Source of the DNA: a virus
DNA length: 27,212 nt
Virus record (IMG/VR): IMGVR_UViG_3300022602_000340
Span: 1-27,212 of that record
Strand: one strand, 5' to 3'
The position numbers and the translations under genes were made by a program. Positions 9,730 to 22,713 of this stretch are shown here, piece by piece (position 1 is the first letter of the stretch; each line of letters begins with the position of its first letter). A model generated the notes under the pieces. The model worked only from the letters and a program-made list of their open reading frames with translations. It made no database searches and was not told the DNA's origin.

Positions 9730-10197
9730 TTAGATCTCTTCGGGCCGGTTATGGTCCAGTGTGGCCCGGGTGTGCCAAATCCAATGATCCAGGCTTTGAA
9801 TGTATTTGCTCAATGTTGAAGCAATACCAAACTGATCAGCCTCGTTTGCTCTTTTATGTGCTTTGATGGTACGATCACGAACTGTTTGAAAGTCTGCTAG
9901 AAGTTCTGCGTTGATTTTCTCAACATCAGGGACTTCGGTGGCATCTTCGAGTTCGGTGAGTTCTTGAACTCGTTCAATACTGGCTGGTGGTGTTTCATCC
10001 AAATATCTAATACTATGTCCAATCCTGTGGTTATACCACATGATCTTTTTGGCGATCTTTTTGAATGCGTGATGGTTTTCCAACATGGTGGCACCTTCAG
10101 CACCTAGGCTAAATCCTTCTACCTTGGCGTGTAAGCTGATGTTGTCAGCCCATAATGTTTTTAAGTGATCTACAAGTTTATCTGTATCGTCGGCCAT
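9730..10197 (-). CDS. Dps/ferritin-like protein with altered metal ligands
   Basis: This 155-aa helical protein follows the Dps pattern: helix A with His23 ('SLHAKVEGF', compare the Dps HWNVxGxxF segment), helix B with 'NHHAFKKIAKKIMW' and 'HRIGHSIRYLDETPPASIER', which lines up with Dps DxxAERIRALGxxPPGS. Later come the 'DFQTVRDRTIKAHKRANEAD' helix and a C-terminal 'SLDHWIWHTRATL' helix like the Dps end. Dps proteins form 12-mers that oxidise and store iron and protect DNA. In my hand alignment the ferroxidase Asp and Glu of helix B become His57 and His61, so classic chemistry may be lost or changed. A virion or DNA-binding role is possible. Confidence 0.6.
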   Translation of the reverse strand: MADDTDKLVDHLKTLWADNISLHAKVEGFSLGAEGATMLENHHAFKKIAKKIMWYNHRIGHSIRYLDETPPASIERVQELTELEDATEVPDVEKINAELLADFQTVRDRTIKAHKRANEADQFGIASTLSKYIQSLDHWIWHTRATLDHNRPEEI

Positions 10198-10862: not shown

Positions 10863-11219
10863 TTATTTACTTAAAACTGTTTTTTTAGTCCAGTTATAGT
10901 GTTTAGGTTGAGGTTTACGAGTAGGGCTAAGACGACTTTCTCGCAGTTGTTCTCTACGTGTAATGATATGAACATTATCACAATCCCAAGCCAACCCTGG
11001 ATCAATTCTAGTCAACACCAGATCATCCCCTTGTCTGCCACGTCGGGCCCAATCTGTAGGATTGTGCCATATCTCAAAATATTCTTCTAGAGTTATGTTC
11101 CAGGTTTCTTTTCTAAAACGTGCTTGAACCCGACTGAGATTCCAAGCATAATGACGCTTATGATCAAATGGATCCTCAAAATATTTTCTAGCACCTACAC
11201 CATACGGATACTTTTTCAT
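10863..11219 (-). CDS. Putative endonuclease-like or DNA-binding phage protein (118 aa)
   Basis: The ATG overlaps the stop of the preceding endonuclease-like gene (ATGA). The basic N-terminal half contains 'SRVQARFRKETWNITLEEYF', and the middle carries 'TRIDPGLAWDCDNVHIITRR'. The Arg-Ile-Asp, Trp and Asn-Val-x-Ile-Ile order is like that seen in HNH-type homing proteins (RID...W...N). I cannot place full catalytic His residues, so activity is uncertain. The tandem arrangement with the 150-aa neighbour suggests related origin or paired function. Confidence 0.5.
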   Translation of the reverse strand: MKKYPYGVGARKYFEDPFDHKRHYAWNLSRVQARFRKETWNITLEEYFEIWHNPTDWARRGRQGDDLVLTRIDPGLAWDCDNVHIITRREQLRESRLSPTRKPQPKHYNWTKKTVLSK

Positions 11220-11668
11220 AGGGTTTTCGTCCTGGTAGGAGTTGTCAATGCTTTAGACAAGGGCCATCCACGGTCTAAACGACTATACAATGTGGTGTGA
11301 TGAATTTCATATTGATCGGCCCAATCACGTAGATTTTGAGTTTGATTGTTCCAGGTCAATTGATGAGCCCGAATACTGTGTCTACCTACCTGTTGTGATG
11401 GTGCCCATTGTAAATTGCCTAGGACATAATCTCCATTGATGTCAATCCTATTCAATTTGCTGTGAAAACCATCAGGTGGTTCTCCCAGAGTAGTTAGAAC
11501 CAATTCTTCAAAACTTCTAAAGTTTGCAAAACGATTTTGAATACCTCGACCACCATATCTTGGATAATCTGCGTTGTTGGGATTGCCTGTGACTGCCACT
11601 ATATGATTCCATCTGGCCCATAAGGGACTGTCTACCACACGGTCACTGCGTTTATATCGTTTTGCCAT
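11216..11668 (-). CDS. HNH/AP2-type homing-endonuclease-like protein
   Basis: The 150-aa protein has the arrangement seen in many phage HNH-like proteins: 'YGGRGI' near residue 38, 'FRSFEELV', then 'KLNRIDINGDYVLGNLQWAP' at about 71-90 (the RID-NGxY-xxNxxW core). The C-terminal helix-turn-helix-like part is 'NLRDWADQYEIHHTTLYSRL'. Such proteins recognise DNA and may nick it. GAGGAGACAAGTT precedes the ATG, with an ATAAATA box just upstream (11686-11692). It interrupts no recognisable gene, so it is a free-standing homing-type gene or a domesticated regulator. Confidence 0.65.
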   Translation of the reverse strand: MAKRYKRSDRVVDSPLWARWNHIVAVTGNPNNADYPRYGGRGIQNRFANFRSFEELVLTTLGEPPDGFHSKLNRIDINGDYVLGNLQWAPSQQVGRHSIRAHQLTWNNQTQNLRDWADQYEIHHTTLYSRLDRGWPLSKALTTPTRTKTL

Positions 11669-12443: not shown

Positions 12444-13442
12444 TTATTCATATATATCCCAATCAAGTTTAATCACATATCCTGTATGTGATCTCACATA
12501 ACTTCTCAACTCAGTTTCATCAATTGCTTTCTGACATGTCCAACCATCATGTTCAAGTAATCCCTTGTTATGTGTTTTCCTCAAATACCTCTTTATCACT
12601 AAGATAACTTGTTGTTCTAGTTCTCTATATAGTTTGGCTTTATCTCTTCCACTTAACCTCAAAGATGTAGAAGTAATATAAGGCTTAATAGATCTCCACA
12701 TGAGACGAATTTCTTCTTTAATACCCTGTATGTACGAATTAGTTTTGAGTTTATCAATTGCCATATGATTTTTAATATGAACAAATATAGAACTATCTGT
12801 TTTATGACTGATAGGTGCTCCATGAAGCATAGCATTGATAACAAATTTTACTTGATTCTCTGTGAGGTCAGTTTCTAAGGCAATTTGCCTTCTTATTGAC
12901 TGTCTATCTAGGATATATTGGTCTAAAACAGGTGTTAAGGCGTCAAAACCACAGGTATTGCGAGCGTATTGTAGTAATAGTGTTGGAGCACAACAATTGA
13001 TGTCATATCCATAATTGTAACCTGAACTGGCCAACATGGGGCGTTTGATTCTTTTGGGCAACTGTTGTATGTCATTAAAATACCTATTGGCCTTTTCTGT
13101 ATAAACAAATTCACCAGTGGTCAATTGAGCATGTTGTTGATCTGTTATGGAGGTAGGGGTAGAAGCAGTTCCATATACCTGCTGATATAGATCATGACAT
13201 CCTACAACATTACGCACATATTGTTTACATTTGCCCGAGGCCATGTTGTAATAGGAATCCTCACAGATCAACAGTTGTTGTCGTAGATATTGTCCTAAAG
13301 GTTTATTGGTAAAATGCTTGTCTATTTCTCTGGTGCTTAACCATTGTGGTGTGGATCCAACAAAAGTATTGACCCATGCCAGGGCTGATTTACATCTTCT
13401 TTGGACTCTGATGTCCGTGAAATTGGGTTGGTATAAACTCAT
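12444..13442 (-). CDS. Minimal family-A-like polymerase (TV-Pol-like candidate)
   Basis: This 332-aa protein shows the three palm/fingers motifs of the PolA/T7 RNA polymerase superfamily in order. Motif A is 'YGYDINCCAPTLL' (Asp147). A motif-B-like helix 'VKFVINAMLHG' has Lys199 and Gly208 at the same +9 spacing as Klenow Lys758 and Gly767. Motif C is 'LLEHDGW' (His298, Asp299). The A-to-B distance (52) is close to Klenow (53). No exonuclease domain fits in the N-terminal 140 residues, and the motif-B Arg is absent. Iyer, Abhiman and Aravind (2008) described a family of small PolA-related polymerases in mobile elements and viruses with proposed primase-polymerase activity; this may be a phage relative. 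AGGA lies before the ATG. Confidence 0.6.
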   Translation of the reverse strand: MSLYQPNFTDIRVQRRCKSALAWVNTFVGSTPQWLSTREIDKHFTNKPLGQYLRQQLLICEDSYYNMASGKCKQYVRNVVGCHDLYQQVYGTASTPTSITDQQHAQLTTGEFVYTEKANRYFNDIQQLPKRIKRPMLASSGYNYGYDINCCAPTLLLQYARNTCGFDALTPVLDQYILDRQSIRRQIALETDLTENQVKFVINAMLHGAPISHKTDSSIFVHIKNHMAIDKLKTNSYIQGIKEEIRLMWRSIKPYITSTSLRLSGRDKAKLYRELEQQVILVIKRYLRKTHNKGLLEHDGWTCQKAIDETELRSYVRSHTGYVIKLDWDIYE

Positions 13443-13470
13443 TTATTTTCCTAATGGATCTTGTTGCCAT
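13390..13470 (-). CDS. Possible 26-aa leader ORF overlapping the polymerase start
   Basis: ATG at 13470 has an excellent AGGAGACAATT site, better than that of the polymerase itself. The frame runs 26 codons and overlaps the polymerase gene by 53 bases in another frame. The peptide is basic (Arg, Lys, His-rich). It could couple or damp polymerase translation rather than make a functional product. Confidence 0.35.
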   Translation of the reverse strand: MATRSIRKINEFIPTQFHGHQSPKKM

Positions 13471-13485
13471 AATTGTCTCCTATTA

Positions 13486-13493
13486 TATTTATA
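13486..13493 (-). promoter_or_regulatory. TATAAATA, T4-late-promoter-like box
   Basis: The minus strand carries the full T4 late consensus TATAAATA 16 bases upstream of the leader ATG and 44 before the polymerase start, downstream of the strong terminator at 13688-13705. T4 late promoters consist of this -10 alone and need gp55-type sigma factors, none of which is seen here. Confidence 0.4.
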
Positions 13494-13548
13494 TAATACA
13501 TGAAAAAATCAGTTAAGTCTAGAGGTATCACTTGAGATGGAGGAAGTT

Positions 13549-13677
13549 ATGTTTACGTCAATCCTATGGCCCTTGGGCTATAGGCCTGGCTTAGCTAGGT
13601 TCCTCATATATGATATATATTATATGTATGCAATATTGTCACACGAGTTAACTCGTGTGACATGTAAACAATCTTAG
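13549..13677 (+). CDS. Possible small plus-strand ORF (42 aa)
   Basis: ATG at 13549 is preceded by GGAGG at five-base spacing, and the 42-codon frame ends 10 bases before a hairpin that also works as a terminator on the plus strand. The product would be Ile/Tyr/Leu-rich in the middle. It spans the AT-rich tract and the 26-bp palindrome, so the frame may be accidental. No strong plus promoter is seen. Confidence 0.2.
   Translation: MFTSILWPLGYRPGLARFLIYDIYYMYAILSHELTRVTCKQS
13564..13583. repeat. 8-bp hairpin with CTTG loop
   Basis: CTATGGCC and GGCTATAG form an 8-bp stem with one G-T wobble around CTTG. It lies in the leader between the candidate polymerase promoter and its start codon, so it may shape the 5' UTR. 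The rest of the 13471-13636 stretch is AT-rich and holds no other gene I can support on the minus strand. Confidence 0.35.
13619..13624 (-). promoter_or_regulatory. TATAAT -10 box next to the palindrome
   Basis: The perfect minus-strand TATAAT lies 12 bases downstream of the 26-bp palindrome, which therefore covers the expected -35 region. No consensus -35 is present at 16-18 bases, so activation or repression by a dimeric protein on the palindrome is plausible. It would drive the polymerase-like gene. Confidence 0.4.
13637..13662. repeat. 26-bp perfect palindrome
   Basis: The left half is TGTCACACGAGTT and the right half its exact complement. It is flanked by an AT-rich tract (13606-13636) and weak outer inverted copies TGTTTAC (13550-13556) and GTAAACA (13664-13670). 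It fits an operator for a dimeric regulator or part of a replication origin in front of the polymerase-like gene. Lacking a loop, it is more likely a DNA site than an RNA hairpin. Confidence 0.65.
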
Positions 13678-13687
13678 CCAAAGAAAA

Positions 13688-13705
13688 AGCCCCAGTTAAG
13701 GGGCT
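13688..13705 (-). terminator. Strong rho-independent terminator
   Basis: Minus-strand AGCCCC-TTAACT-GGGGCT is followed by TTTTCTTT. A flanking AAAAAGC/GCTTTTT pairing extends the structure, so it may also stop plus-strand transcripts. It separates the fibre/zinc-finger operon from the polymerase-like gene. Confidence 0.8.
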
Positions 13706-13833
13706 GGAGCTTTTTCACTTCTTACAAAACCTATGCCAGGACAGCGAGAAGTGTGAAGGGAATATACAGGATATTTTAGTTTGGCAACAAGAATTAAACG
13801 AGCGATTCAAAAAATGAATCTTTCCCTTCACAC
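13706..13833 (-). ncRNA. Structured 3' UTR or candidate small RNA
   Basis: Three bases after the stop of the 142-aa gene, GTGTGAAGGGAA (13833-13822) pairs with TTCCCTTCACAC (13762-13751) over 12 bp and encloses a GATTCA/TGAATC hairpin (13820-13804). A competing 7-bp helix joins CACTTCT (13753-13747) with AGAAGTG (13722-13716), sharing three bases with the first. The terminator follows. It could be a processed phage RNA, a switch, or a stabilising 3' end. No match to a known RNA family is recognised. Confidence 0.4.
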
Positions 13834-13835
13834 AT

Positions 13836-14264
13836 TTATTTATTATTTTCTATTTCAATGGGCATCAAATCATGGTGATAACGTGTGATTCTGATTTCTT
13901 CTGTATCTACCAAAATTTGTTTACGTGGACGTCCTTTTGGTCCACGTGCCTGTTTGATTTTGGGATGGGTTCTAACGGGCAACATGTTACGGAATTCTGA
14001 CGCAGGACGACCACGTAGGCATAGGGATCTAGCAGTTTTAGGTATGGGCTGTTGATACAACACATGATCACACACATTACATCTGTGTCGCACATGCTGA
14101 CTGGGTCTACCCCAGGCCATGACTTCCATTATGACAGTTCTATTCAGCACAGATCGGTCACAGGTTTCACAAGGTCTGATTTGTGATTTTAATCGATAAA
14201 CATCTGTCTTGGCATTGTATTCCAGATATTGGTCAATAAAAGGTTTTAATAATTTAGGATCCAT
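13836..14264 (-). CDS. Zinc-finger / AT-hook DNA-binding protein
   Basis: This 142-aa basic protein has a zinc-ribbon-like pair of knuckles, Cys32-x2-Cys35 (CETC) and Cys62-x2-Cys65 (CNVC). A C-terminal AT-hook-like core 'GPKGRPRKQ' lies at about 108-116, and two further Gly-Arg-Pro triplets are at about 52-54 and 85-87. It probably binds AT-rich DNA and may regulate late genes. The AT-rich tract and palindrome just downstream are possible targets, by inference only. It is the last gene before the structured 3' UTR and terminator. A TAAATA box and AGGG lie before the ATG. Confidence 0.6.
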   Translation of the reverse strand: MDPKLLKPFIDQYLEYNAKTDVYRLKSQIRPCETCDRSVLNRTVIMEVMAWGRPSQHVRHRCNVCDHVLYQQPIPKTARSLCLRGRPASEFRNMLPVRTHPKIKQARGPKGRPRKQILVDTEEIRITRYHHDLMPIEIENNK

Positions 14265-19166: not shown

Positions 19167-21596
19167 TTATACTGGTGCCGCCGAAGCATCAAACCAGCCA
19201 TTGATGGGACCCAACGCTGTATAAACCCAAATGTGTTCTGTATCTAATGCCACCAAGGCATCAAAGTAAAGTGGTATAGGATCTGCCGCATAAAAATTTT
19301 CAGAGGATGCGGTATCTACATTACCTTTAAATGTTATCATGGGAGGCAATACACCATAATCAGGGATCCAAGCACTATATTGAACAGTTCCATCTGGAAA
19401 TTGAACGCCATCTGGAAATAATGGTGGACCACTGCCATCATGGTTATAAATTCTACTTACATATAAATTACTATTGGGAGCCGAAGGACCCACAATCAAT
19501 GGATCAGCATTGATCAGCAGGTAGGTTCCTGTTGTGCCTAATGTAATGTTATTGCTATTTAAAGCAATGCTGGGTGAGGTTATGTTGATACCGGCTGTGT
19601 TGGTTATTATGCTTGAATCACCAACCACAATATCCAATTCACTAGAACTAAATTGAATATATTCAGTGCCAGTGGTTGAGGCATTATATGTTATTTGATA
19701 ACCATTGGTATATAGATCTTGTGTTAATTCTTTGAGTTCTGGACCACTTGGACCCGAGGGACCTGGATCACCCTGAGGACCTGGTAAGCCCGCAGGCCCT
19801 GTGGGACCTCTAACTCCTGTGGGACCTGTGGCACCTGTAGGACCTGATGGACCGCCTGGAGTTCCTGCGGGACCTGTGGCACCTGTGGGACCTGATGGAC
19901 CTGTAGGGCCTGATGGACCGCCTGGAGTTCCTGCAGGACCTGTGGGACCAGATGGACCTGTGGGACCTGTTCCACCACCACCTCCTGCAGTATACTGTTT
20001 GCTACCATCTGGGAATTCAAGATAATCACCTAACACAACAGGTTTTAAAAATCCAGTATAATCCTTGGTCATACTCATTGAATTTACTACCGCTGTTTCA
20101 TAATAGATATCTGGATAGTAATCAGTTTTGCCTTCGTTTTCAATCCATCTAAATTCTTGAGTGGTATTAATGACTTCTAATAGAATACCGGCCTGACTAT
20201 AAGTATTGGCCTGAGTGGTAGGCCCACCTTGAATATTTTGAGATCTAATAGTAATTTCATTATTGCTGCCACCCTGCGTTATTAGATCAATTTTACCAGC
20301 CGCTGTGACCGCAACATCACCTGAATAATTATTTTGAGTATATTCATATTTTTCAATATAAGGACCTGGTCCAGGAGGTATGTTTAGACTGAATAAGCGT
20401 GTTGCGGTGATGCTGTATTGACCCAGGGCCGTGGCATCCACATTGGTGGAAGTGGTAACAATGCGGCCATCACCACCCAATTTTAACATGGATGGACCTT
20501 CAGGTGTTTCCGCATGAACAGCAGGATCACCACCTGACCATACATATAAATCATTGGCTGTGCCTAGATTGGTTCCAGATTTGATATTATAACCATCAGT
20601 GGTTAGATCTGTGAACAGAGTCCAAACAGTTCCTACACCAAGGTATTGCCAACTGGCATGTCCGGCACCATCTGTCATTAAGAATTGTGTATTGGCACCC
20701 TTATTGGTAGGAAATGTGGTTCCATCTAGATTCAAAAGACCATTGACATTGAGATTGTTTAATGTTACATCATTTTGATGAAAGGACACATTACCTTCAA
20801 AATCAACTGTGTTGTTAAAAACAGCAGGACCATTAAAAGTAGAGGAACTGTTGATGGTAAGTCCACCTGATCCTAGGCCACCACCTACTGTAAAATTACG
20901 TCCTATGGCCGCATCACGACCAACAGTTAAATCTAGACCTATTGAAGCCGAAGTTCCTACATTTAGATAATTGGTAATGGTCAAATGATCTAGTGGAGTA
21001 TCCATTGTGACCAACCCAACAAGGTGACTGGTTCCTGTGACCATTAAATTGCCACCTGAGATTGTTCCAGGAACCGTTAGATATCCACCACCTGAAATAT
21101 TGCCACCCACTGTTAGATTAGAACCTATGGTGGCAGTGGTTCCTACGTTTAGATAATTGGTAATGGTAAAATGATCACGTGGTGCTTCATTCCAAACAAA
21201 ACGTTGCCAATGATCAGGATCTTGATCAGGTGGAAAACCGCTGGAGTAATAAACTGTAACATCAGGATTCCAATACTTTAAAAAGTATAGACTCCAATTG
21301 TGTTGAACAATATCCCCGGGTAGATAATAAAAATATCCTGGAGGTGGAGCAAATGGTGGCATTACAGACTGTGCTACCCATTCACCACGCCAATAATCAT
21401 CTAGAGTTCCTGCTCGTAATTCAGAGAAATTGGTGTAGATTGTTACAGTTGAAATATAATCAGTAATGGTAAAATTACTGACCACAGAAGTCAATGTGAA
21501 ATACGCATTGGTTTCACTGACTGAAATGGTAGGCAATGCCACAGTGGTAACTGTGAATTGTGGCCTAACTTCTGTGATTGTAAATGAATAAGGCAT
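19167..21596 (-). CDS. Long tail fibre with collagen-like domain
   Basis: This 809-aa protein has an N-terminal beta-rich region. Then comes a Trp/Tyr-rich segment '[10 protein letters not shown]' and '[18 protein letters not shown]' (about 68-111) resembling small carbohydrate-binding modules. Two similar shaft repeats both contain '[10 protein letters not shown]'. A collagen-like tract follows at about 537-618 and a C-terminal beta region contains '[13 protein letters not shown]'. Collagen-like tracts in phage fibres form triple helices. It probably forms a long side fibre or tip fibre for host binding. AAGGAG overlapping the upstream stop precedes the ATG. Confidence 0.72.
19741..19985 (-). 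repeat. Collagen-like Gly-X-Y coding tract
   Basis: About 27 Gly-X-Y triplets rich in GPT, GPS and GPA. The register is broken twice by the same PGGP step. A 66-base unit is repeated: the string CCTGATGGACCGCCTGGAG starts at 19843 and again at 19909. The tract probably expands and contracts by recombination. Confidence 0.8.
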
Positions 21597-22260: not shown

Positions 22261-22713
22261 ATGAATAACACAGGTATTGAAAAATTTTGGTCCAAGGTAG
22301 ATAAAACCAACACCTGTTGGATTTGGAAAGGATCAAAAGATAGTCATGGATATGGACAATTTACACATGAATATACAAATTATAAATCACATAGATTGAG
22401 TTATGAATTGACTCAGGGTTCTATTCCAAAGGGATTATTTGTATGTCATAGTTGTGATAATCCAAAATGTGTAAATCCAGCACATCTTTGGTTAGGCACA
22501 TTACAAGATAATCATCGTGATATGATGATGAAACATCGACATGGTCATGGAACTCATCCTGGTTCTCAAAATCCTGCCGCAAAACTTACTGAACAACAAG
22601 TTTTAGAAATAAGATCCCTACCTGGACCTCGTAGAAAACTAGCCGAACAATATGGTGTTTCAAAGGCCACAATAGATGATATTAAAACCAGAAAAACCTG
22701 GCGTCATATCTAA
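22261..22713 (+). CDS. HNH homing endonuclease
   Basis: The only well-supported plus-strand gene, 150 aa. The central HNH_3-type domain has His44-Arg45, 'VCHSCDNPKCVNPAHLWLGT' (about 61-80, with Cys63, His64, Cys66, Cys70, Asn72, His75) and Asn84-x2-Asp87. The C-terminal helix-turn-helix-like part is 'AEQYGVSKATIDDIKTRK'. It would cut DNA at a specific site and spread itself. It lies between the tip and 182-aa genes and its end overlaps the tip gene by four bases tail-to-tail. No clear ribosome binding site precedes the ATG, so expression may be low. Confidence 0.85.
   Translation: MNNTGIEKFWSKVDKTNTCWIWKGSKDSHGYGQFTHEYTNYKSHRLSYELTQGSIPKGLFVCHSCDNPKCVNPAHLWLGTLQDNHRDMMMKHRHGHGTHPGSQNPAAKLTEQQVLEIRSLPGPRRKLAEQYGVSKATIDDIKTRKTWRHI

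Follow-up and report, generated by a model that had tools for sequence, protein, structure and literature searches.

A 332-residue phage protein with a predicted polymerase I-type fold and kinship to the TV-Pol polymerases

TV-Pols are a little-studied family of polymerases of transposons and viruses described by Iyer, Abhiman and Aravind in 2008 and predicted at that time to unite priming and polymerisation (PMC2579912). They occur in mobile elements, and share two metal-binding aspartates, a beta-hairpin with an absolutely conserved Arg, fingers with a conserved Asp and an RxxxK motif, and an N-terminal thumb of two antiparallel helices; the same authors noted one member with a displaced thumb, resolvase neighbours of others, and a TV-Pol in Microcystis phage LMM01 (PMC2579912). 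The biochemically tested TV-Pol is CcPol of SCCmec. Together with its partner MP it acts as a DNA primase and primes with dNTPs; CcPol uses dNTPs and not NTPs, and without MP it extends primers but does not prime (PMC7581432). In divPolA2 of barbaviruses and Vibrio phages, another small polymerase I-type palm from phages, a globular domain at the N-terminus takes the place of the thumb; these phages encode a regular polymerase B as well, and for divPolA2 a repair or end-processing type of role has been suggested (PMC11348598). Here we describe a phage protein that resembles each of these in part, and compare its sequence, predicted structure and genomic setting with theirs.

The gene and its predicted domains

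The virus record that carries the gene has 27,212 bases and no end repeats; it was analysed whole and is referred to here as the window. A sequence-only reading had proposed a minimal family-A-like polymerase at this place, and the underlying ORF is genuine: it encodes 332 aa and runs on the minus strand (13442..12444), the plus strand at 12444-13442 being full of stops. Its features are:

12444..13442, minus strand: gene of the 332-aa TV-Pol-related polymerase (ORF, family alignment, AlphaFold model, structure matches)
13149..13442, minus strand: predicted N-terminal domain, residues 1-98, winged-helix-like, replacing the canonical thumb (separate model, structural matches)
12996..13004, minus strand: motif A, Tyr146-Asp147-Ile148, with the first metal-binding Asp (Tyr and Asp invariant; model strand 144-148)
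12819..12848, minus strand: motif B, Lys199 to Gly208, fingers helix (Lys and Gly invariant; helix 195-206)
12543..12551, minus strand: motif C, His298-Asp299-Gly300, with the second metal-binding Asp (invariant; turn of hairpin 294-296/300-303)

The protein's family comprises about 40 divergent members, mostly of 23-43% identity. In viral contigs, a search with the single sequence found 2 relatives, one with a first alignment 7 loci and one with a second alignment 40; bacterial genome contigs added 2 more, one from an uncultured Legionella bin and one from the chromosome of Roseateles depolymerans. We found that R120, Q126, Y146, D147, R184, K199, G208, W249, Y272, E276, H298, D299 and G300 are invariant in a 34-sequence family alignment, and that the residues originally read as motifs (Asp147, Lys199-x8-Gly208 and His298-Asp299) are thus present as claimed and invariant among relatives. 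Some relatives were retrieved with a pattern that contained EHDG, but those retrieved solely by N-terminal and mid-protein patterns keep HDG too. The motif spacing is also as first reported (52 residues from D147 to K199 and 99 from K199 to H298), although by itself it is weak support for a polymerase identity. No model in Pfam, PHROGs or NCBIfam, nor any of the PDB sequences, recognised the family; weak library matches to DKNYY, CueP and Melibiase were taken as chance.

The AlphaFold2 model built from the 34-member alignment (pLDDT 92.3, pTM 0.80) presents in succession the D147 strand, an insertion of fingers helices that includes K199, several long helices, and a hairpin whose turn holds H298-D299; this is the order of the polymerase I palm. 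The top matches of this model in the PDB were of the polymerase I family, and VIA-align gave Z 13.3 against T7 DNA polymerase (3.2 A, 216 residues), Z 12.2 against Klenow and Z 11.1 against yeast mitochondrial RNA polymerase; among viral models, uncharacterised proteins of tailed phages and the polymerases of two virophages, Zamilon and Qinghai Lake virophage, matched best. Taken together, the fold, the structure matches and the invariant catalytic residues uphold the assignment of the protein and its motifs to the polymerase I/T7 superfamily, and the model gives strong support to palm and fingers domains of this type whose two-aspartate active site is intact. From its topology and the structural alignment we infer that Asp147 would lie next to Asp299, and two-metal polymerisation by the modelled protein is strongly implied. 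Against this fold shared with T7 DNA polymerase and Klenow stand an identity of 9-14% and the lack of an exonuclease, of a canonical thumb, and of the O-helix Arg and Tyr and the steric-gate Glu (residues 195, 207 and 152). The steric gate is a Glu in Klenow, whereas 32 of the 34 family sequences carry Ala there and the remaining 2 carry Cys; nor does the family have the O-helix Tyr or conserve the O-helix Arg.

Two domains take up all 332 residues of the model, which agrees with the reported absence of an exonuclease domain. The description of the polymerase as minimal holds for its size but not in the sense of a bare core, as residues 1-98 are modelled as a separate winged-helix-like domain, and no canonical or evident thumb was seen in the AlphaFold model. 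Modelled alone (pLDDT 86.9), these residues have the order H-E-H-H-E-E-H: a helix and a strand, then a pair of helices, a wing formed by two strands and a last helix. Winged-helix proteins made up nearly all of their top structural matches, with a plasmid initiator and a replication terminator protein among them, although the Z values were 3.5-4.3; a winged-helix-like DNA-binding domain at the thumb's place is therefore predicted with moderate support. Compared with the N-terminus of classical TV-Pols, residues 1-98 gave E 0.006 and score 22 (30 shuffles, scores ≤17), and homology between the two would for now be a lead only.

Kinship with TV-Pol

By tblastn the Roseateles relative matched proteins of two Polaromonas plasmids (E 3e-4), one of which in turn matched MAP_030 of Microcystis phage LMM01 (6e-5). 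An hhalign comparison of the family with plasmid and cyanophage TV-Pols gave 99% probability, E 4.4e-18 and score 138, with scores of ≤20 in the controls (ten column shuffles and a reversal), and a maximum-likelihood tree, in which some rows are very long, placed the phage subfamily and the classical TV-Pols on opposite sides of one branch (92/86). The profile match, the tblastn chain to LMM01 and the virophage structure matches bear out the relation to the TV-Pols of Iyer et al. that had been suspected at the outset. Common descent, judged from these alignments, is strongly supported, as is the protein's membership of the polymerase I superfamily, where it falls in a TV-Pol-related subfamily.

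The likeness extends to the palm/fingers core, the hairpin Arg, Gln126, both Asp, the fingers Lys and HDG. R120 is found in 34/34 sequences, with strands 115-117 and 120-122, and aligns with the GRLY Arg of plasmid TV-Pols; the two metal-binding aspartates D147 and D299 are invariant in 34 relatives, with matching topology in the model. Similar to TV-Pols, the family has no nuclease domain, its members are found in viral contigs and in recombinase-linked chromosomal copies, and some adjoin a serine recombinase: in Roseateles the relative begins about 180 bases past a 530-aa serine recombinase, and in the bacterial genome G084 the distance from such a gene to a divergent relative downstream of it is about 1.2 kb. 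In the divergent chromosomal relative at L082:7652-8881 (minus strand), near a serine recombinase, FDIKSCFP and IHDC replace YDI..APT and EHDG. However, members have 332-416 aa as against about 500 in TV-Pols, and differ from them in having a predicted winged-helix-like N-terminus, no canonical thumb seen in the model and no D5 helicase; five residues past the motif A Asp this protein has Ala where classical TV-Pols have His, and the family lacks the Tyr preceding the motif B Gly. As for the fingers RxxxK, Lys199 is invariant, while an Arg four residues earlier occurs in 1/34 and is absent in that register in the examined classical TV-Pols too. Two other proteins deserve mention, an unannotated 767-aa TV-Pol-like protein of Desulfovibrio phage SRB7757 (L004:7101-9404, plus strand; hhalign to the family E 7.6e-12) and the TV-Pol of Polaromonas plasmid pH8NP1 (L067:6095-7600, plus strand), whose annotation as a Clp protease N-terminal domain protein apparently stems from a sub-cut-off Pfam match.

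Likened by description, CcPol-MP (PMC7581432, PMC10061031) is similar in that CcPol too is a stand-alone polymerase I-type domain of a mobile element with no exonuclease, but the OB-fold partner MP is encoded beside it, whereas the neighbour ORF list identified none for the present polymerase. The ORF preceding the gene often overlaps its start, yet among relatives it is of several unrelated types, and no conserved upstream partner was found. The resemblance to divPolA2 is one of layout; in sequence, hhalign gave a weak match of the family to its representative AUR84708 (E 0.024, 45 columns, the target being a single sequence).

Genomic setting

The window genes include terminase, portal, capsid and tail, with tail genes at both ends; because no tape-measure-sized gene is found beside them among the window ORFs, the record is probably incomplete. 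On a circular map, about 7.7-14.3 kb, from the fibre/lysis genes to terminase, is the non-structural block of the phage. The place of the polymerase gene had been called odd, but this puzzle dissolves, since the gene opens the block, which runs to terminase, behind a terminator and a 393-nt leader:

13443..13835, minus strand: 393-nt non-coding leader upstream of the polymerase gene (no notable ORF save a 26-codon one overlapping the start)
13637..13662, strand not assigned: perfect 26-bp palindrome TGTCACACGAGTTAACTCGTGTGACA, operator-like (13-nt arms, 100% complementary)
13688..13705, minus strand: terminator-like hairpin closing the upstream transcription unit (stem of 6 pairs and a T tail)

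The leader is a candidate control region or origin. Its palindrome has no conserved counterpart upstream of relatives' polymerase genes and is specific to the window's phage. Near the gene, GC skew, AT content and repeats gave no consistent origin candidate and promoter-like sites were not more frequent than in shuffles; Rfam and tRNA searches returned no family and no tRNA. Immediately upstream (13836-14264, minus strand) is a 142-aa protein with CxxC pairs (zinc-ribbon-like), and small CxxC proteins precede the gene in several relatives also. A Dps/ferritin-like protein (9730-10197, minus strand; Pfam Ferritin 2.6e-9, phrog_3636 DNA binding protein) is matched at 24.5 bits by a protein-cluster profile from 7 related genomes, and such a protein thus often accompanies the polymerase in phages. 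Elsewhere we observe an HNH endonuclease by profile (11216-11668, minus strand) with a related-looking neighbour (10863-11219, minus strand), an HNH-like ORF (22261-22713), no other gene of any size being on the plus strand of the window, and a collagen-like fibre protein in which Gly-x-y is repeated at length (19167-21596, minus strand).

Three relatives' genomes carry direct repeats of 109-191 bases at their ends and were taken as complete (33.8-35.1 kb). When the proteins of 11 genomes were clustered, the polymerase family was the only cluster in all, with portal, capsid and tail clusters in different sets; as these genomes were picked for carrying the gene, the result shows its combination with different virion modules and not universality. 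The 11 genomes gave no DNA_pol_A or DnaB_C match, and classical DNA polymerase I (DNA_pol_A, PF00476) was unmatched in the window and ten related genomes, with positive controls detected. The earlier observation that the window holds no other replication gene stands, in that profile searches recognised no further polymerase or helicase there. Neither was recognised in G006 and G016, both closed by end repeats, where in a P-loop scan terminase was the only typical P-loop ATPase; a second motif match, in a DNA methylase, was taken as chance. It is possible that an unrecognised replication gene is among the small ORFs of the closed genomes. G024 and G003 have an extra small P-loop ATPase on the opposite strand, and the small P-loop ATPases of about 290 aa in two related phages (L063:754-1620 and L047:12309-13190, both minus strand) are possibly helicase-loader-like. 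In one closed genome a fusion of a ParB_N domain with an N6/N4 DNA methylase directly follows the polymerase gene (L049:8939-10489, plus strand).

Possible roles of the polymerase

The likeliest proposal, to which we give an even chance, is that the polymerase starts phage DNA synthesis as both initiator and primase-polymerase. Its N-terminal domain, for which we hypothesise origin binding, would bring it to a place in the phage genome, perhaps in the leader (13443-13835), where the polymerase domain would make or extend a short primer strand; the genome would then be copied by host helicase and replicase, or by strand displacement. Priming is plausible by analogy, given the TV-Pol kinship, the priming by CcPol-MP with dNTPs and the lack of any other recognised primase. 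Support for an initiator and primase-polymerase comes from the fold, that kinship and the invariant catalytic residues, from the family's standing as the sole cluster that all 11 genomes share while their virion modules vary, from the lack of DNA_pol_A and DnaB_C matches and of P-loop ATPases other than terminase in G006 and G016, and from a gene that opens the non-structural block and whose relatives adjoin serine recombinases like other TV-Pols. Moreover, the one biochemically tested TV-Pol, CcPol with MP, is a DNA primase (PMC7581432). However, neither a helicase nor an MP-like partner with an OB fold was identified, and CcPol alone cannot prime; the N-terminal fold matches are at Z ≤4.3, the genomes were selected for the gene, and skew, AT content and repeats reveal no origin. 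The missing helicase and partner may be supplied by the host. Only tentatively do we propose a one-protein initiator, in which an origin-recognising winged helix and a thumb-less palm would start strands, of DNA or of mixed RNA/DNA, unaided.

A repair, gap-filling or end-processing DNA polymerase that helps at ends or lesions while host enzymes replicate the genome seems rather unlikely: the same fold does repair elsewhere, and the small size and the absence of an adjacent helicase or partner gene would suit this role, but the protein is the sole replication-type enzyme recognised in closed G006 and G016, is kept in phages with different virion modules, and has as kin the TV-Pols of plasmids and recombinase elements. 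That it is selfish cargo, a passenger TV-Pol with no part in phage replication, is improbable, since its active site is strictly conserved across deep divergence and no recombinase or transposase adjoins the gene in the window, even though TV-Pols live in mobile elements (PMC2579912), chromosomal relatives adjoin a serine recombinase and the gene is found in phages with unrelated virion modules. Least probable of all is a single-subunit RNA polymerase that transcribes phage genes and reads promoters with its winged-helix domain: T7 RNA polymerase has Gly where the family has Ala (32/34) or Cys (2/34), and mitochondrial RNA polymerase also matches the model (Z 11.1), but DNA polymerases match it better (Z 12-13), the Tyr by which T7 RNA polymerase selects sugars is absent, classical TV-Pols have His at the gate, CcPol takes dNTPs and not NTPs, and neither a thumb nor a promoter loop was seen.

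A recurrent phage gene that the searched family libraries do not recognise can now be named, and small bacterial viruses that otherwise differ may have a polymerase of this type as their sole replication enzyme. The protein is a stand-alone version of 332 residues, possibly thumb-less, and its strict natural conservation guides mutants. This opens to test the smallest working polymerase I core, a DNA-binding domain in place of thumb and partner, and the start of replication in tailed phages without a recognisable helicase or primase. If the one-protein initiator were true, a tailed phage of about 34 kb would replicate without a helicase or primase of its own.
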